From: Chelativorans sp. J32
GTDB taxonomy: Bacteria > Pseudomonadota > Alphaproteobacteria > Rhizobiales > Rhizobiaceae
DNA length: 64,000 nucleotides
Reading direction: 5' to 3'
NCBI RefSeq assembly: GCF_000518985.1
Contig: NZ_JAEQ01000011.1
Location: 62,001-126,000, forward strand
In this document: positions 19,215 to 27,935 of the stretch, in pieces
Layout of the letters: each line of letters starts with the position of its first letter
Position numbering within the stretch: the stretch's first letter is position 1
The notes under the pieces: model-generated
Told to the model about the DNA's origin: nothing
The model's database searches: none
The model's input: the letters and a program-made list of their open reading frames with translations, nothing else
Translations under genes and position numbers: made by a program

Positions 19215-20051
19215 ATGCTTCAACTGCGAGAAGTCACGCGACGCTTTGGAACCAATGTCGCGGTGAAGAACGTAGACATCGAAATCGGCGACGGTGAGAT
19301 GGTCGGCATCATCGGCCGTTCCGGTGCCGGCAAATCCACGCTGCTGCGCATGATCAACCGCCTCATCGATCCGAGCGATGGGGCGATTCTTTTTGATGGA
19401 GTCGAGGTTTCGGCCCTTAGCGGCGCGGCGCTTCGGCGGTGGCAGCGCGATTGTGCGATGATCTTCCAGCAGTTCAATCTCGTGCCTCGGCTCGATGTGC
19501 TCACGAATGTTCTGCTTGGACGCCTCAACCATCGTTCTACCGCCCGCAACCTCCTCGGTCTCTATTCACGCGAGGAGCGCCTGCAGGCGATCGCCGCTTT
19601 GGAGCGCCTCGACATTGCCAGGACGGCATTGCAGAGAGCAGGCACTCTCTCGGGAGGGCAGCAGCAGCGTGTTGCGATCGCGCGTGCCCTGATGCAGGAG
19701 CCGAAGGTCATCCTTGCCGACGAGCCGATAGCTTCGCTCGATCCGCTCAACGCCAAGGTGGTGATGGATTCGCTGGCCGATATCAACGCCCGCGAGGGCA
19801 TCACCGTCATCACCAACCTGCACACGCTGGACACTGCGCGCCACTACTGCTCGCGGATCATCGGCATGGCCCAGGGAGCCGTGGTCTTCGACGGCACGCC
19901 GGCGCAACTGACCAGTGAAGCCGTGCGCCGGGTTTACGGGGCGGAAGGGACGGACGCGATTGCCGAGGCGATCACATCGACCAGCATAAACAAGCCGGCC
20001 CGACCGCCCCAAGCCAAGCCGCGCCTGGAGCCGGCCGTGCTCGCCGGCTGA
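19215..20051 (+). CDS. phnC: Phosphonate ABC transporter ATP-binding protein
   Basis: 278 residues, cytoplasmic ATPase of the PhnCDE importer. Walker A is '[20 protein letters not shown]', the Q loop '[20 protein letters not shown]', the signature '[16 protein letters not shown]', Walker B '[14 protein letters not shown]' and the switch His is in '[12 protein letters not shown]'. '[19 protein letters not shown]' is typical of PhnC. The C-terminus extends about 30 residues in a proline-rich tail. The ribosome binding site GGGGAGAA precedes the ATG. First gene of the Pho-box-controlled run; equivalent to phoC of Sinorhizobium meliloti. Confidence 0.95.
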
Positions 20052-20136: not shown

Positions 20137-21045
20137 ATGTTGAAGCACATCTTCTTGGGTGCTGTGGCTTTCGGCGCTATCCTCGTGGGAAGCGCGCGGG
20201 CAGAAGATCTCAAGGAATTCCGTATCGGCCTTATCGGCGGCGAGAACGAATCCGATCGGCTGCGCAACTTTCAATGCATGGTGGAGAAGCTGCCTGCTGT
20301 CCTGGGCGTCGAGAAGGTCTCGCTCTTTCCGGCCGCGGATTATGACGGCACCATCCAGGGCCTTCTTGGCGGCACGCTCGACTACGCCGAACTTGGCGCT
20401 TCGGGCTACGCCAAGATCTATCTGGAGGACCCGAACGCGGTCGAACCGATCCTGACCACGGTGCAGACGGACGGCTCCGCCGGCTATTACTCGATCATGG
20501 TCGCCCGCAAGGATTCCGGCATTCGTACGGTCGAGGACCTGAAGGGCAAGAAGCTCGGCTTTGCCGATCCGGATTCCACGTCCGGCTATCTCATCCCGAT
20601 GGTCACGCTGCCGCAGGCGATCGGAACGGATGTTAAGAGCTATTTTGGCGAGACCGGCTTCGGCGGCGGCCACGAGAATCTCGTTCTCGAGGTGCTGAAG
20701 GGCACGTTCGATGCAGGCACGACCTTCGGCTCCGGCGTCGGCGAATTCGCCGACGGCTACAGCTCCGGCAATCTGCACAAGATGGTCGAAAAAGGCATTC
20801 TCGACATGGACGACCTCGTCGAGGTCTGGAAATCGCCGCTCATCCCGAACGGCCCGGTGGTCGTCCGTTCCAGCATGAACCAGGAAATGAAGGATACCTT
20901 CAAGCAGTTCATGATGGATCTGCCCAAGAGCGACCCGGAATGCTTCTCAGCCATTCAGGGCGGCGACTTTTCCGGTTTTATCGAAGTGACGCCCGAGTTC
21001 TATCAGCCGATCATCGACGCCCGCAAAGCCCAGATCGGCTCATAA
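20137..21045 (+). CDS. phnD: Phosphonate/phosphate ABC transporter substrate-binding protein
   Basis: 302 residues, periplasmic. A Sec signal peptide ends near 'GSARAEDLKE'. The PhnD/PhoD fold shows 'RIGLIGGENESDRLRNFQCM', 'GTLDYAELGASGYAKIY', 'GSAGYYSIMVARKDSGIR', 'VEDLKGKKLGFADPDSTSGY' and 'GGHENLVLEVLKGTFDAGTT', the ligand-phosphonate pocket strands. Ligand breadth (phosphonate, phosphite, phosphate) is not decidable. It is separated from phnC by 85 bp and from phnE by a GC-rich hairpin, which usually lets the binding protein be made in excess. Confidence 0.95.
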   Translation: MLKHIFLGAVAFGAILVGSARAEDLKEFRIGLIGGENESDRLRNFQCMVEKLPAVLGVEKVSLFPAADYDGTIQGLLGGTLDYAELGASGYAKIYLEDPNAVEPILTTVQTDGSAGYYSIMVARKDSGIRTVEDLKGKKLGFADPDSTSGYLIPMVTLPQAIGTDVKSYFGETGFGGGHENLVLEVLKGTFDAGTTFGSGVGEFADGYSSGNLHKMVEKGILDMDDLVEVWKSPLIPNGPVVVRSSMNQEMKDTFKQFMMDLPKSDPECFSAIQGGDFSGFIEVTPEFYQPIIDARKAQIGS

Positions 21046-21102: not shown

Positions 21103-22071
21103 ATGAGCGTTACCAATCGCCCCCCAGTATCCCTGTCCCCGGGACATGCGATCGAAGTGCATTGGCAGGCGCTCGCAGCGCGACGCCGCTTCTACACGAT
21201 TGGCGGCCTTCTCTTGATGTTCGCGGCCCTGAGCGGTTCGCTTTGGTTCGCAAATGAATCGAATGCCGGCAAGTTTTTCGATCGGCTTCCCTATTTCTTC
21301 GATTTCGTCGGCCAGCTCATGCCGCGAGACGGCTGGGAAGTGTGGCGGGCCCTTTTCGATCTCCCGTCGCCCTATGACGATGGCAGCCTGAAGTTCGACT
21401 ATCCGGATGGAAGAGTCTATGTGACCGATGGCTTCTACATACCGGAATATTTCTATGACATGCTGGAGACGATCAATATCGCGCTCGTTTCCACGCTCAT
21501 CGGTTTCGGTTTCGGCTTCGTCCTTTGCTTTCTCGCCGCTTCCAATCTCACTTCGCGACGGTGGCTGCGCTGGTTTGTGCGCCGCTTCATGGAAATCCTC
21601 CGCGCATTCCCGGAGATCGTCATTGCCGGTTTTTTCCTGGCGGTACTCTCGATCGGAGCTGTTCCCGCGATCATCGCTGTCGCCATCCATACGATTGGAG
21701 CATTGGGCAAACTGTTCTTTGAAGTGGTGGAGAATGCCGACTTGCGCCCGGAGGAGGGTCTGCGTGCGGTGGGCGCCAATTGGGTCGAGCGGGTCTGGTT
21801 CGGCATCGTGCCCCAAGTCCTTCCCAATTTCCTGAGCTATGGACTGCTTCGCCTGGAAATCAATGTACGCGCTTCCACCATAATCGGTGCTGTGGGTGGC
21901 GGCGGCATAGGCGAGGCGCTCCGGCTTTCCATCAGCCGCGGACACGAGGCAAAGACACTCGCCATCGTGCTTCTGCTTTTCTGCACGATTACCGCGGTCG
22001 ACCAGTTTTCCGCGTGGCTGCGCCGCCGCATCGTCGGCAGCCAGAGCTTCGATTTCGGGCGGGGAGATTGA
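21103..22071 (+). CDS. phnE: Phosphonate ABC transporter permease (first PhnE)
   Basis: 322 residues, inner membrane. One helix (about 30-50) precedes a periplasmic loop ('SPYDDGSLKFDYPDGRVYVT'), then the BPD-transporter domain. Permease helices begin 'MLETINIALVSTLIGFGFGF' and include the coupling-helix EAA-type loop around 'LRPEEGLRAVGANWVERVWF' and 'GAVGGGGIGEALRLSISRGH'. Ends one base before the second phnE start, so the two are translated together. Corresponds to phoE in S. meliloti. Confidence 0.94.
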   Translation: MSVTNRPPVSLSPGHAIEVHWQALAARRRFYTIGGLLLMFAALSGSLWFANESNAGKFFDRLPYFFDFVGQLMPRDGWEVWRALFDLPSPYDDGSLKFDYPDGRVYVTDGFYIPEYFYDMLETINIALVSTLIGFGFGFVLCFLAASNLTSRRWLRWFVRRFMEILRAFPEIVIAGFFLAVLSIGAVPAIIAVAIHTIGALGKLFFEVVENADLRPEEGLRAVGANWVERVWFGIVPQVLPNFLSYGLLRLEINVRASTIIGAVGGGGIGEALRLSISRGHEAKTLAIVLLLFCTITAVDQFSAWLRRRIVGSQSFDFGRGD

Positions 22072-22072
22072 A

Positions 22073-23623
22073 ATGGCGACGTTGACGGCATCCGAGGCGG
22101 AATCCCTCGCAGAACGCCATCCGGATATCTTCGCGGTACCGTTGCGCAAGCGTCTTGCCGGGTGGCTGATCGGCTTCGGGATCGTTGCTTATCTCTCCTT
22201 TGCCTGGTGGTTCTTTTCCGTAGGGCAGGTTTTGTCCGGCGCGAATTGGGAAATCGCAGATGCCTATATGGCCGACTGGATATCCTATGAAATCCAGCCC
22301 AGCCTCGCCTTGAAGGGCAATCATCTCGAGATCACCTATCCGCGCTTCTCGCCGCTTGGCGACAATCCCGACCCGGATTGGGTGGAGAAGCGTATGGGAA
22401 CGGTGGAGATCCCCGAACGGGGCACACCGGTGACCCCGGACAATGGGGCTGCGAAGGCAGGCGCGGGCTTCCTTGGAAATATGAATTCTTCAAATTCCGG
22501 CGGCTTCCTGGGCCAGCTTGGCACCAGCGCTCCCGGCGCGGCTACCACGGCTCCCGCCAATACTCCACAGGAACCGGTGCGCCGCGAGGAGGCCGTTTTA
22601 GAGGCCACCGTGCATTTCGGCGGAGAAAAGAGCGTGGAGATCCTTCCCGGTCTTGTGCGCGTGCAGCGGGGCGAGGAAATGCTGACGTTCGAAATCGAGG
22701 ACGGGCGGGTGATTGCGCGCGATCCTCTCCCCGACTGGGCGATCCAGCGTGAGCCGGGCGCCAAGGTCACGGCGTATCTCGGCTTTGCCGGCCGCGTGGA
22801 AATCCGCGACGATGTCGTCAAGATCCGCCGCCGTTTCCTTGGCTGGGAAAACTTTTTCTTCGATACGCGCTCGGCGTTTTTCGGCCGGTCGGTGGGGGAG
22901 GTGGCCCATCTCGTCTTCTTCGGCGAGAGGCTCGATCCCGATAGCTCCAACACGGCGCTCGCCTGGCAGGATTTTCTCAACAATACCGAATGGCAGCACG
23001 GCGATGTCTGGCTCAAGCTCTTCCAGACGATCGTGATGGCCTTTGTCGGCACGGTATTCGCGACTTTGCTGGCGTTTCCGCTCGCCTTTGCCGCCGCACG
23101 GAACATAAACCCCAACAGAGCCGTCAATTTCCTATTGAAGCGCTTCTTCGATTTCCTCCGTTCGGTCGACATGCTGATCTGGGCGCTCTTCTTCACACGC
23201 GCCTTCGGTCCCGGGCCGCTCGCCGGTATTTCGGCGATCTTCGTCACCGATACGGGCACCTTCGGAAAACTCTATTCCGAGACGCTGGAAAATATCGATG
23301 ACAAGCAGCGAGAGGGCGTGCGTTCGGTTGGGGCGGGACCGGCTGAAGTGCAGCGTTACGGCGTGATGCCCCAGGTCCTGCCGGTCTTCATCAGCCAATC
23401 GCTCTACTTCTGGGAATCGAACACGCGCTCTGCCACCATCATCGGGGCTGTGGGCGCCGGCGGTATCGGCCTTAAGCTTTGGGAGGCCATGCGCACCAAC
23501 TCCGACTGGGAGAATGTGGCCTATATGGTCCTGCTCATCCTCCTTGTGGTTTTCATCTTCGACAATATATCCAATCTATTGCGTCGGAAGCTCATCGGTA
23601 CGGATGCTGCCGGAACGCGATGA
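22073..23623 (+). CDS. phnE2: Phosphonate ABC transporter permease with large periplasmic insert (second PhnE)
   Basis: 516 residues, much longer than its 322-residue partner. After one membrane helix (about 28-50) there is a soluble, beta-rich region of about 260 residues. It contains a low-complexity Gly/Ala/Ser/Thr/Pro linker near residues 130-165 and strands such as 'TVHFGGEKSVEILPGLVRVQ'. The permease domain starts near 315 ('WLKLFQTIVMAFVGTVFATL'), with the coupling loop 'REGVRSVGAGPAEVQRYGVM' and 'GAVGAGGIGLKLWEAM'. The long form resembles rhizobial PhoT. The role of the insert is unknown; a dock for PhnD is a guess. Confidence 0.93.
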   Translation: MATLTASEAESLAERHPDIFAVPLRKRLAGWLIGFGIVAYLSFAWWFFSVGQVLSGANWEIADAYMADWISYEIQPSLALKGNHLEITYPRFSPLGDNPDPDWVEKRMGTVEIPERGTPVTPDNGAAKAGAGFLGNMNSSNSGGFLGQLGTSAPGAATTAPANTPQEPVRREEAVLEATVHFGGEKSVEILPGLVRVQRGEEMLTFEIEDGRVIARDPLPDWAIQREPGAKVTAYLGFAGRVEIRDDVVKIRRRFLGWENFFFDTRSAFFGRSVGEVAHLVFFGERLDPDSSNTALAWQDFLNNTEWQHGDVWLKLFQTIVMAFVGTVFATLLAFPLAFAAARNINPNRAVNFLLKRFFDFLRSVDMLIWALFFTRAFGPGPLAGISAIFVTDTGTFGKLYSETLENIDDKQREGVRSVGAGPAEVQRYGVMPQVLPVFISQSLYFWESNTRSATIIGAVGAGGIGLKLWEAMRTNSDWENVAYMVLLILLVVFIFDNISNLLRRKLIGTDAAGTR

Positions 23624-23698: not shown

Positions 23699-23741
23699 GC
23701 AAATCACCTAATCCATCGCGATCTGCGAGGGCCGTTTGACA

Positions 23742-24449
23742 ATGCGATATGCAATCTATTTCACGCCTCAAAAGGATGACCCGCTCACCCGCGCTGCGGA
23801 GCGTTGGCTGGGGCGGAGCGCTTTCGGAGGGCATCAGATTACGCCCACGGCAGCAGGATCCTTTTCCGCCGCTGAGATTGCGTTCCATACCGCCGCTGCG
23901 CGGCGTTACGGTTTCCATGCAACCTTGAAGGCGCCCTTCCGCCTCGCGGAGGGGAAGAGCGAAGCGGAATTGATCGCTGCGCTGGAAAATCTCGCCGCGT
24001 CGCGTGAGCCTTTCCTGGTCGAGCCGGTGAAACTTGCCCGGCTTGGAGGCTTTTTCGCGCTCGTGCCGGCTGTTGCATCGCGGGAACTCGACCAGCTTGC
24101 GGCCGATGTGGTCACCGAGTTCGAACCCTATCGCGCTCCGCTCACACAGGACGAGATCGCAAGGCGCAATCCCGATGGGCTTTCCCCGGCGCAGCTGAAA
24201 AATCTCTATAAGTGGGGTTACCCGCACGTATTCGAGGAATTTCGGTTCCACATGACGCTCACAGGGCGCATCCCTGCCGCCGAAGCCGAGCGGATGCAGC
24301 AGGCTATCGAGGAATTCTTCGGCCCGTTGCTTCTGCAAGCGCTTCAGGTATCAACACTTGCCCTGTTCGCGGAGCCCGAGGCAGGTGCTCCGTTCCACAT
24401 AATGTCCCTTCATGCCCTGGGCGGCGAGAGGGAAAGGAAGTTTGCCTGA
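23742..24449 (+). CDS. DUF1045 / TIGR03223 phosphonate-metabolism protein, 2H phosphoesterase fold
   Basis: 235 residues from the ATG at 23742 (a TTG two codons upstream is possible). The family is found in phosphonate operons but is poorly characterised. Two H-x-T-L motifs are present: His59 in 'YGFHATLKAPFRL' and His170 in 'FRFHMTLTGRI'. This is the signature of 2H phosphoesterases, which open cyclic phosphates. Since phnP is absent here, the protein could hydrolyse the 5-phosphoribosyl 1,2-cyclic phosphate left by C-P lyase. That substrate is inference; the fold call rests on the two motifs. phnM starts 2 bp after its stop codon. Confidence 0.85.
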   Translation: MRYAIYFTPQKDDPLTRAAERWLGRSAFGGHQITPTAAGSFSAAEIAFHTAAARRYGFHATLKAPFRLAEGKSEAELIAALENLAASREPFLVEPVKLARLGGFFALVPAVASRELDQLAADVVTEFEPYRAPLTQDEIARRNPDGLSPAQLKNLYKWGYPHVFEEFRFHMTLTGRIPAAEAERMQQAIEEFFGPLLLQALQVSTLALFAEPEAGAPFHIMSLHALGGERERKFA

Positions 24450-24450
24450 A

Positions 24451-25590
24451 ATGCCGACTGAATTGATTTTGAAGAACGCTCGTATCGTGCTGGCCGATGA
24501 AGTGGTGAGCGGCAGCATCGCCATTCGCGACGGGCGCATTACCGATGTTTCGCGTGACGACATCGCTGGCGGCGAGGATATGGAAGGCGACTTCCTTATT
24601 CCCGGGCTCGTGGAACTCCATACCGACCACCTGGAGCGTCATTATTCCCCGCGTCCCAAGGTCCGATGGAACCCGATCGCCGCAGTTCTCGCCCACGACG
24701 CACAGATCGCGGCTTCCGGCATAACAACCGTGTTCGACGCCCTTCGTGTGGGCATGGATGAGGATGCGGATCTGGAATCCAGCGAGATGCGCCGCCTGGC
24801 GGACGCCATAGAAGAGAGCATCGCAGCCGAGCGCCTGCGCGCCGACCACTTCCTGCATCTTCGCTGCGAGGTCTCCGCGCCCGACTGCCTCGACGGCTTC
24901 AAGCTGTTCGAGAATGATTCGCGTGTGAAGCTTGCCTCACTGATGGACCATTCCCCGGGTCAGCGGCAGTTCACGGATCTTGAGACCTACGCGACCTATT
25001 ACAAGGTGAAGATGAAGCTGTCGGATGACGAGTTCCGACGCTTCTGCGAGCGCCGCATGGCCCAATCAGAAAAGAATTCCGCGCCGAACCGTCGTGCGAT
25101 TTCCGAAGCCTGCCGGGCAAACGGAATCATACTGGCGAGCCACGACGACGCCACGCTGGAGCACGTGCGCGAGGCGGAAGCCGACGGTGTGCGCGTGGCC
25201 GAGTTTCCCACCACCGCTGCGGCGGCGCGCGCGTCCAAGGATGCCGGGATGGCCGTTCTCATGGGCGCACCCAATGTGGTGCGCGGCAGTTCTCATTCCG
25301 GCAATGTCTCCGCACGAGAGCTTGCGGAAGCGGGCGACCTGGACATCCTATCTTCGGACTATATCCCCTTCAGCCTTGTCCAGGCGGCGTTCTTTCTGAG
25401 CGAAGCTGTCGAGGGCATCACGCTTCCGGAGGCCGTCGCAAAGGTCTCCAAGAATCCGGCGGAGGCCGTTGGTCTCAGCGACCGCGGCGTGATCGAGCCC
25501 GGTCGCCGGGCCGATCTGGTGCGCGTCCGGCTCGATGATGGCATCCCGGTGGTCCGTACCGTCTGGCGCGAAGGACGCCGCGTCGCGTGA
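24451..25590 (+). CDS. phnM: Alpha-D-ribose 1-methylphosphonate 5-triphosphate diphosphatase
   Basis: PhnM removes pyrophosphate from ribose-1-methylphosphonate 5-triphosphate in the C-P lyase pathway. The ATG at 24451 gives 379 residues, the usual size. It is an amidohydrolase-fold enzyme: 'DFLIPGLVELHTDHLERHYS' carries the metal-binding His-x-Asp-His, later ligands are in 'FLHLRCEVSAPD', 'SLMDHSPGQRQF' and 'ILASHDDATLEHV', and 'MGAPNVVRGSSHSGNVSARE' closes the site. The stop overlaps the phnN GTG. The core lyase genes phnG-L are not in this window. Confidence 0.95.
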   Translation: MPTELILKNARIVLADEVVSGSIAIRDGRITDVSRDDIAGGEDMEGDFLIPGLVELHTDHLERHYSPRPKVRWNPIAAVLAHDAQIAASGITTVFDALRVGMDEDADLESSEMRRLADAIEESIAAERLRADHFLHLRCEVSAPDCLDGFKLFENDSRVKLASLMDHSPGQRQFTDLETYATYYKVKMKLSDDEFRRFCERRMAQSEKNSAPNRRAISEACRANGIILASHDDATLEHVREAEADGVRVAEFPTTAAAARASKDAGMAVLMGAPNVVRGSSHSGNVSARELAEAGDLDILSSDYIPFSLVQAAFFLSEAVEGITLPEAVAKVSKNPAEAVGLSDRGVIEPGRRADLVRVRLDDGIPVVRTVWREGRRVA

Positions 25591-26219
25591 TCGTTTCCGC
25601 CTCTATCCAGCGCGCTCAGGACGAGGCGCCCTTTCCGATAAGGCAGGGTGTGTTTGTCGCCGTCGTGGGGCCTTCGGGCGGCGGTAAGGATTCGGTGATG
25701 CGCTATGCGAAAGAGCGTCTCGGCTCTCTCGAAGCCGATATCATCTTCGCCCGGCGTGTCATCACCCGCCCGATGGAGCCGGGCAGTGAGGAACATGACA
25801 CACTGGACGAAGCGGGCTTCGAACGACGGAAGGCGGCCGGCGGCTTCGCTCTTTCCTGGTGCGCCAACGGGTTGAGCTATGGTCTGCCCGCAAGCGTGGA
25901 CGAGGCGATGCGGCAAGGAAAGGTCGTCGTGGCGAATGGCTCGCGCGCCGTGATCCCCGAGATCAGGGCGCGTTATGTCCACGTCTTGCCCGTGGTCATT
26001 ACCGCACCTCGCGAGGTGTTGGCGGAGCGTCTTTCCAGCCGTGGCCGCGAAACGCGCGAAGAGATGCTGGCTCGGCTCGCTCGCGGTACCGCAAGCGAAC
26101 TCGCGGTAACCGACGGCCACGTCATCGACAATTCCGGCCCGTTGGAGGTGGCCGGGGAGCGTTTCCTCGAAACGCTACGCAAGGCTGCTGCCTGGAGCGA
26201 TGTTTGTGATATGGTCTGA
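25587..26219 (+). CDS. phnN: Ribose 1,5-bisphosphate phosphokinase
   Basis: PhnN phosphorylates ribose 1,5-bisphosphate to PRPP, the last step of ribose recovery in the C-P lyase route. 210 residues from a GTG overlapping the phnM stop. The guanylate-kinase-like fold shows the P-loop 'GPSGGGKDSVMRY', 'IIFARRVITRPMEPGSEEHD' and the lid region 'LSSRGRETREEMLARLARG'. Product PRPP could feed the uracil phosphoribosyltransferase 1.1 kb downstream. Only 21 bp separate it from add. Confidence 0.94.
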   Translation: MIVSASIQRAQDEAPFPIRQGVFVAVVGPSGGGKDSVMRYAKERLGSLEADIIFARRVITRPMEPGSEEHDTLDEAGFERRKAAGGFALSWCANGLSYGLPASVDEAMRQGKVVVANGSRAVIPEIRARYVHVLPVVITAPREVLAERLSSRGRETREEMLARLARGTASELAVTDGHVIDNSGPLEVAGERFLETLRKAAAWSDVCDMV

Positions 26220-26240: not shown

Positions 26241-27212
26241 ATGGTGCTTAAAGCTGAACTCCATTGTCATATAGAGGGCGCCGCCTCGCCCGCGCTCGTC
26301 GAAGCCCAGGCGCGGAAGTACGGCGCCGACGTTTCTTCCTTCATCCGCGACGGCGCTTACTGCTGGCGGGATTTCACCACTTTCCTGATCGCCTATGATC
26401 GGGCCGCCAGCCTGTTCCGGACAGCGGAGGATTATGCACTTCTGGCGGAAACCCATCTGACGGAGCTCGCCCGACAAGGCGCGATCTATTCTGAATTCTT
26501 CACCTCGCCCGACCATGCCGAACGCGCCGGCCTTTCGCCACAAGCCTACACGGAAGGGCTTGGCGAGGGCATCGCCCGGGCAAAGCGTGCGGCCGGCATA
26601 GAGGCGCGCATGATCGTCACCGGTGTGCGTCACTTCGGCCCGGAAGCGGTGGAGAAGGCCGCCCGTTTTGCCGTCACCTGTGGCCACCCTCTGGTGACCG
26701 GCTTTGGCGTGGCCGGCGACGAACGTGTCGGCCATCCCCGCGATTTCGTGCGCGCGTTCGATATTGCCCGCGAAGCGGGGCTCGGCATCACCATTCACGC
26801 AGGCGAGTTCGGCGGGGCCGACAGTGTCGAAGCGGCACTTGATCACCTGAGACCATCCCGGATCGGCCACGGCGTGCGCGCGATCGAGCAGCCGGACCTC
26901 CTGCGCCGGATCGCCGAGGAGGGGATCGTCCTGGAAGTCTGCCCTGTGTCCAACATCGTGCTTAAGGTCTTCCCGGATTTCGCGCGGCATCCGTTCTTGC
27001 AGCTCCGGGCCGCCGGGTGCCGGCTGACGCTCAATTCGGATGACCCGCCCCATTTCCGCACCCGCCTGGCGCGGGAATATGAGGTCGCTGCCGAGCATTT
27101 CGGACTTCGCGAGGCTGCGCTCCTGGCTCTGACCCGGACGGCGGTCGAGGCGGCGTTCGTAGACGAGGAAACCCGCGCGGCGCTGCTGGCCCGGATCGAG
27201 GCCGGCTCCTGA
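26241..27212 (+). CDS. add: Adenosine deaminase family protein
   Basis: 323 residues. The zinc-dependent enzyme converts adenosine to inosine and ammonia; a related branch acts on adenine. Metal and catalytic motifs are '[13 protein letters not shown]' (two His), '[18 protein letters not shown]' (His and Glu), '[11 protein letters not shown]' (catalytic His) and '[13 protein letters not shown]' (two Asp). It lies 21 bp after phnN with its own weak ribosome binding site, so it is probably part of the phosphonate transcript. PhnI of the lyase complex releases adenine, so a purine-salvage deaminase here makes sense; that link is inference. Confidence 0.9.
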
Positions 27213-27305
27213 TTTCATAAATCTGTGACAGGAATTTACCTCCGTCTGGCGGCCGGACGCATAAGCGTTATTGTTTCGGCTAGCAGAGTTCGCGGAGTAA
27301 AAGCC

Positions 27306-27935
27306 ATGCAGGGCGTAACCGTCGTCGATCACCCGCTTGTCCAGCACAAGCTCACCATCATGCGCGACAAGGAGACGTCGACCGCCGGTTTCCGCCGCCT
27401 GTTGCGCGAGATTTCGCTGCTGCTTTGCTACGAAGTCACGCGCGACCTTGAGCTCACGACGCGTATCATCGAGACACCGCTGACGACGATGGAAGCGCCG
27501 ACCTTGGAAGGCAAGAAGCTGGTATTTGCCTCGGTCCTGCGCGCCGGCAACGGTTTGCTCGATGGTATGCTCGACCTGGTGCCCGCAGCCCGCGTCGCCC
27601 ATATCGGGCTCTATCGCGATCACGAGACCCTGCAGGCGGTGGAATATTTCTTCAAGGCGCCGAGCGATCTCGAGAACCGGCTGGTGATCGTGGTGGACCC
27701 CATGCTTGCCACCGCCAATTCCGCCGTCGCTGCCGTTGATAAGCTGAAGGCGCGCGGTGCTGGCAATATCCGTTTTCTATGCCTGCTCGCCGCGCCGGAA
27801 GGTATCCAGCATTTCCGTGAAGCGCACCCGGACGTACCGATCTTCACGGCATCGATTGACGAGCGCCTCAACGAGCAAGGCTATATCGTGCCTGGGCTGG
27901 GCGATGCCGGCGATCGCATGTACGGCACGAAATAG
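27306..27935 (+). CDS. upp: Uracil phosphoribosyltransferase
   Basis: Upp makes UMP from uracil and PRPP. The ATG at 27306 gives 209 residues, the family size; an upstream in-frame GTG at 27225 is unlikely because homologues begin 'V-x-V-x-D-H-P-L-V-x-H-K'. Seen here are '[20 protein letters not shown]', '[20 protein letters not shown]', '[11 protein letters not shown]', the PRPP loop '[19 protein letters not shown]' and '[14 protein letters not shown]' at the C-terminus. It follows add by 93 bp and may share its transcript. Convergent with deoA. Confidence 0.96.

Follow-up and report, generated by a model that had tools for sequence, protein, structure and literature searches.

The window, the whole stretch of 64,000 nucleotides of Chelativorans sp. 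J32 DNA analysed here, carries genes in the order phnC, phnD, phnE1, phnE2, DUF1045, phnM, phnN, an adenosine deaminase family gene and a uracil phosphoribosyltransferase gene (Table 1). An in-frame ATG of phnM lies 1 nt past the stop codon of DUF1045, and the last 4 nt of phnM are shared with phnN, which confirms the position directly before phnM and phnN given to the DUF1045 gene by a sequence-only reading of this DNA.

Table 1. Features of the phn operon and of its DUF1045 product, with positions counted from the first nucleotide of the window.
Feature	Position	Strand	Evidence
phnC, phosphonate ABC transporter ATPase	19215..20051	+	TIGR02315, 323.1 bits, over cut-off
phnD, phosphonate-binding protein	20137..21045	+	TIGR03431, 330.2 bits, over cut-off
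phnE1, permease	21103..22071	+	TIGR01097, 244.7 bits, over cut-off
phnE2, permease, long N-terminal extension	22073..23623	+	TIGR01097, 251.3 bits, residues 293-507 of 516
DUF1045 / TIGR03223 protein, proposed 2H-type 5-phosphoribosyl 1,2-cyclic phosphate phosphodiesterase	23742..24449	+	family models, fold, co-occurrence
first 2H motif, H59-A-T-L	23916..23927	+	H59 in 75/75 and T61 in 75/75 phn-linked copies, window included
second 2H motif, H170-M-T-L	24249..24260	+	H170 in 75/75 and T172 in 73/75 phn-linked copies, S in the other two
phnM	24451..25590	+	TIGR02318, 509.3 bits, over cut-off; start inferred from sequence
phnN, ribose 1,5-bisphosphokinase	25587..26219	+	TIGR02322, 215.2 bits, over cut-off

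The same reading linked the operon to the C-P lyase pathway; phn genes do surround DUF1045, but the C-P lyase core genes are absent from the window. They are found elsewhere in the genome, on contig C1, which carries phnF, phnGHIJKL and a gene for a hexapeptide-repeat transferase (PhnF, G, H, K, L and the transferase assigned by NCBIfam models, PhnI and PhnJ by Pfam). The reported absence of phnP from the operon was borne out and extends to the whole genome, where nothing exceeds the PhnP cut-off of 272.25 bits and the highest-scoring six-frame hit of the PhnP model reaches 32.4 bits. A hidden PhnP elsewhere in the genome was considered and rejected: the best-matching gene scores 58.4 bits over its full ORF, and generic MBL-fold models fit it better. 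Genes are thus present for every step from uptake to PhnN except that of PhnP.

Downstream, at 26241-27935, the adenosine deaminase family gene begins 21 nt after phnN and the uracil phosphoribosyltransferase gene follows 12 nt further. Since the C-P lyase pathway releases adenine and makes PRPP, the link of these genes to the phn operon could be functional. Among 80 named DUF1045 loci, which are the best of a longer list and all close to the window, one (L145) has a match to the deaminase gene behind phnN.

The DUF1045 gene encodes a protein of 235 residues with the N terminus MRYAIYF. The TTG at 23736 is merely the mechanical start of the open reading frame; the ATG at 23742 is likely the start codon because M1 and R2 are invariant across two alignments of relatives. 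The product matches PF06299 (DUF1045) with 210.3 bits (curated cut-off 24.3), TIGR03223 with 282.8 bits (curated cut-off 248.95) and PF13563, the 2'-5' RNA ligase superfamily, with 41.3 bits over residues 47-209, a region containing both motifs. The PhnP model TIGR03307 gave no match at E 0.001; the protein does not belong to the PhnP family, though it may work like PhnP. In sequence, length and operon neighbours it is alike to the TIGR03223 / PF06299 family, and no feature setting it apart from this family was found. Its closest named relative among the matches listed is from Chelativorans intermedius (71% identity).

The window protein contains the two H-x-[TS] motifs of the 2H phosphoesterase superfamily (H59-A-T and H170-M-T), as the sequence-only reading had noted. 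Conservation was assessed in an alignment of 98 DUF1045 proteins, comprising the window protein and those of 97 loci; locus L144 of genome G170, with broken copies, was left out of both alignment and tree. H59 occurs in 96/98 aligned proteins, as does H170, and every phn-linked copy has both (75/75); with this conservation, the motifs are not a chance occurrence. The pattern H-T...H-[TS] is kept in 71/71 phn-linked copies of genomes with PhnJ. The lone copies also retain H59 and H170 (15/15), five of them differing at one of Y6, K63 or R142.

An AlphaFold model of the window protein (40-row alignment, mean pLDDT 91.5, pTM 0.86) has a two-lobed 2H fold, and its best structure matches are 2H phosphoesterases, including YjcG of Bacillus subtilis (Z 15.6), an Arabidopsis cyclic phosphodiesterase (1jh6; Z 14.3, rmsd 3.0, 165 residues aligned) and LigT of Escherichia coli (Z 13.5). 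A sequence search for relatives with solved structures returned none at E < 0.3. LigT and YjcG have the 2H fold in common with the window protein; neither is known to be linked to phosphonate genes. The Arabidopsis enzyme opens Appr>p (ADP-ribose 1'',2''-cyclic phosphate) to the 1''-phosphate, and Appr>p is named in a PDB title of this enzyme (structures 1fsi, 1jh6, 1jh7). Such chemistry is what the present step requires, with the ribose 1,2-ring opened and the phosphate remaining on carbon 1 for PhnN. The Arabidopsis protein shares the 2H fold but just 12% identity with the window protein, and its substrate carries ADP, unlike the plain 5-phosphate.

In a classification of 98 fetched DUF1045 loci by genomic setting, which does not include the window, 75 have phn genes as neighbours (69 of these with phnM nearby in the sequence fetched), 8 have an FAD oxidoreductase gene next to them and 15 stand alone. 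At least one flank has phnM as its nearest matched gene in 64/98 loci, and phnM or phnN takes this place on one or both sides in 73/98. Of the best 80 named loci, 72 have phnM as the next matched gene after DUF1045, 7 belong to the oxidoreductase kind and one to neither. The linkage to phn genes is common and not required, because seven genomes with PhnJ (G245, G265, G267, G271, G338, G387 and G395) have their sole DUF1045 copy away from phn genes; the phn clusters read in four of them (L231-L234) contain neither DUF1045 nor phnP. No neighbour consistently common to the 15 lone genes was found, the related genomes of L064 and L091 sharing theirs. In the excluded locus L144 (G170:C103), two phn gene sets lie close together and the DUF1045 copies are split into pieces.

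In a midpoint-rooted tree whose bootstrap had not settled, the eight copies linked to the oxidoreductase gene group in a single clade (support 100/100) that falls within the phn-linked proteins of the window's own family. None of the eight keeps the full set Y6, Y56, H59, T61, R142, Y160, H170 and T172; two retain both H-x-T motifs and lack Y56, R142 and Y160. If the phn role maintains the active site, such decay of a duplicate outside the operon is expected. In these loci (L046, L057-L060, L106, L107 and L117), DUF1045 follows the FAD oxidoreductase gene, which is transcribed divergently from a gene for an mnmC2-like tRNA methyltransferase; 7/8 of them also have matches to genes of the PuuE-like, OHCU-decarboxylase and AllA kinds, L046 being the locus that ends early. 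Having lost residues of the active site or pocket, the duplicate that left the phn operon and now stands by FAD oxidoreductase and ureide genes may have become something else.

The co-occurrence of DUF1045 with PhnP was examined in two samples. In a phylum sample of 397 genomes, for each of which at most six PhnP, nine DUF1045 and four PhnM first-look candidates were scored, PhnJ exceeds the cut-off in 103 genomes, all of which have a PhnM match (103/103). DUF1045 exceeds the cut-off in 90 genomes, 87 of them strong once three weak ones are dropped (G180, G234 and G349; 27.6-37.8 bits, over the Pfam cut-off and far from the rest), and PhnP in 25, all 25 with PhnJ. Also left out were G317 from the DUF1045 count (below the cut-off) and G040 from the PhnJ count (18.9 bits, internal stops). 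The 103 PhnJ genomes comprise 76 with DUF1045 only, 25 with PhnP only, none with both and two with neither. The second sample consisted of 200 genomes of the order to which genome G204 belongs; 20 of these have PhnJ (DUF1045 in 15, PhnP in 3, both in 0, neither in 2), including three with DUF1045 already counted (G204, G206 and G210), so that 17 are new (12, 3, 0 and 2, respectively). Sub-cut-off PhnP matches were dropped, the best reaching 108 bits in the phylum and 111 bits in the order sample, versus at least 296 and at least 330 bits, respectively, for those above the cut-off.

Combined, the 120 PhnJ genomes include 88 with DUF1045 only, 28 with PhnP only and four with neither. The sequence-only reading had named regular co-occurrence with phnP beforehand as the observation that would speak against it; 0/120 PhnJ genomes have both genes. 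In two of the four genomes with neither, contigs end in or beside the cluster: the G566 contig ends just past phnM, where relatives carry DUF1045, and that of G477 starts inside phnI, the surroundings being cut off. In the other two, phnN is split or is followed by rearranged DNA: G320 has its phnN broken into two pieces, the smaller of which contains a stop, and phnP does not follow, whereas in G323 a repeat-like sequence separates phnN from phnC. The ORFs listed for these two genomes, which represent part of each locus, showed no third candidate enzyme.

The fold, the motif conservation, the place by phnM and phnN and the mutual exclusion with PhnP agree, and DUF1045 is proposed to be a 2H phosphodiesterase that takes over from PhnP the step linking C-P lyase to PhnN, a reading of sequences and a structure model to which we assign a probability of about 0.85. 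The non-orthologous replacement put forward by the sequence-only reading is thereby supported, and DUF1045 is proposed to stand in PhnP's place in 88/120 PhnJ genomes sampled. For the substrate, the bond cut and the roles of single residues we infer the following scheme. PhnJ cleaves the C-P bond to give 5-phosphoribosyl 1,2-cyclic phosphate, DUF1045 would add water and open the ring to ribose 1,5-bisphosphate, and PhnN would convert the latter to PRPP. H59 and H170 would act as the acid-base pair and T61 and T172 would hold the phosphate, with no metals involved. The proposed reaction and pathway step are those of E. coli PhnP (TIGR03307). PhnP, in contrast, uses metals; its metal-dependent fold is of the metallo-beta-lactamase type and is unrelated to the 2H fold.

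The exclusion might be a by-product of ancestry, two old operon versions having been inherited with genes that do different jobs. The split between DUF1045 and PhnP mostly tracks deep lineages, and the 120 genomes therefore represent far fewer independent events; most families are of one kind, and the window's own class has no PhnP over the cut-off in the phylum sample. However, both kinds of genome, those with DUF1045 and those with PhnP, occur within each of two families (f46 and f89), in different genera. Of the operons read in these families, the two with PhnP (L227 and L228) end phnM-phnN-phnP, the two DUF1045 operons of f89 (L229 and L230) read phnM-DUF1045-phnN, and the two of f46 (L136 and L138) read phnF-DUF1045-phnN. 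The exclusion also appears inside the single order of G204 (p = 0.009; Fisher's test, which, like all those on gene co-occurrence here, ignores kinship), and shared ancestry with different jobs is considered improbable. Slightly less probable still is an action on another cyclic phosphodiester, such as an RNA or nucleotide 2',3'-cyclic phosphate, with the place in the phn operon being secondary. Many of the nearest solved folds are indeed RNA-ligase-like or nucleotide-binding 2H proteins (YjcG, LigT and Usb1), but such a substrate leaves unexplained both the regular place by phnM or phnN and the fact that none of the 88 PhnJ genomes with DUF1045 has a PhnP over the cut-off.

DUF1045 could also have a wider housekeeping or repair function on ribose 1,2-cyclic phosphates, which arise as well when PRPP decays by itself, C-P lyase merely being their richest source. 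Strong DUF1045 without PhnJ is found in 11/397 genomes, near other phn genes in four and alone in seven, where no consistently shared neighbour was found. H-T...H-T is intact in one copy of each of the 11, G393 having one degraded duplicate in addition. A PhnM-model match occurs in 9 of these 11 and in 2 of the other 283 PhnJ-less genomes; in terms of all 294, nine have both DUF1045 and a PhnM match, two DUF1045 only and two PhnM only (kinship ignored). These intact copies and their association with PhnM hint at a second role outside C-P lyase. On the other hand, PhnN exceeds the cut-off in just 3/11, so that in the remaining 8 the product would not return to PRPP via PhnN; six of the nine PhnM matches are over the cut-off and three are only a distant paralogue near purE and purK; most DUF1045 genes (75/98 loci) are phn-linked; and some of the PhnJ-less copies could be remnants of operons that were lost, the counts ignoring kinship. 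A general housekeeping role is thus regarded as possible but rather doubtful. A joint reading is more tentative: DUF1045 would clear ribose 1,2-cyclic phosphates without C-P lyase, would often persist alongside PhnM or a PhnM-like protein once PhnJ is lost, and in one duplicate clade would perhaps have changed function, which we consider unlikely. The PhnM-like paralogue, 32-34% identical to window PhnM, has a shared neighbourhood in five PhnJ-less genomes (L235-L239); in the one scanned (L236), purK and purE are close by, together with two conserved neighbours without a family match. No positional link of these paralogues to DUF1045 was found in the five stretches read.

The role of DUF1045 as a replacement of PhnP is already known as a proposal, in print since 2013. 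Passages of PMC3840354 (2013) state that a 2H protein 'RcsF', a name given to DUF1045 in some phosphonate papers, likely plays the role of PhnP, and cite Huang 2005 for clusters without phnP. They also describe a Rhodobacteraceae fosmid with a DUF1045 gene and without phnP that enables E. coli lacking phnHIJKLMNOP to grow on methylphosphonate. As the whole fosmid was used, the contribution of DUF1045 itself is not separated and the in vivo support is indirect; the view of the sequence-only reading that the family is annotated only by association is therefore nearly, not entirely, true. The idea is repeated in a portion of PMC5649143, DUF1045 is termed a putative phosphoribosyl cyclic phosphodiesterase in part of PMC8235418 (2021), and the Phaeobacter protein appears in a phosphate-stress proteome table of PMC10132767 alongside PhnI, J, L and M. 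In excerpts of the review PMC10574752 (2023), DUF1045 (rcsF) is stated to replace PhnP, and 54 operons with PhnM are reported, with PhnP in 27 and rcsF within 16 lacking phnP (citing Podzelinska 2009); the exclusion described here rests on a larger genome set than this survey as quoted there. A passage of PMC10708946 that names phnP in a Bradyrhizobium phn cluster counts against the proposal, a true PhnP and DUF1045 both being possible. Neither a direct enzyme assay of DUF1045 nor a single-gene rescue of a phnP deletion by it was found in the literature searched, most subscription papers lying outside the search.

If the replacement of PhnP by DUF1045 is true, this protein catalyzes the cyclic-phosphate step in 88 of the 120 PhnJ genomes sampled. 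Confirmation would put a name to a Pfam family still listed as of 'unknown function', would let annotation stop scoring such genomes as missing the cyclic-phosphate step, and would complete the pathway for many phosphonate-using (and methane-releasing) bacteria.
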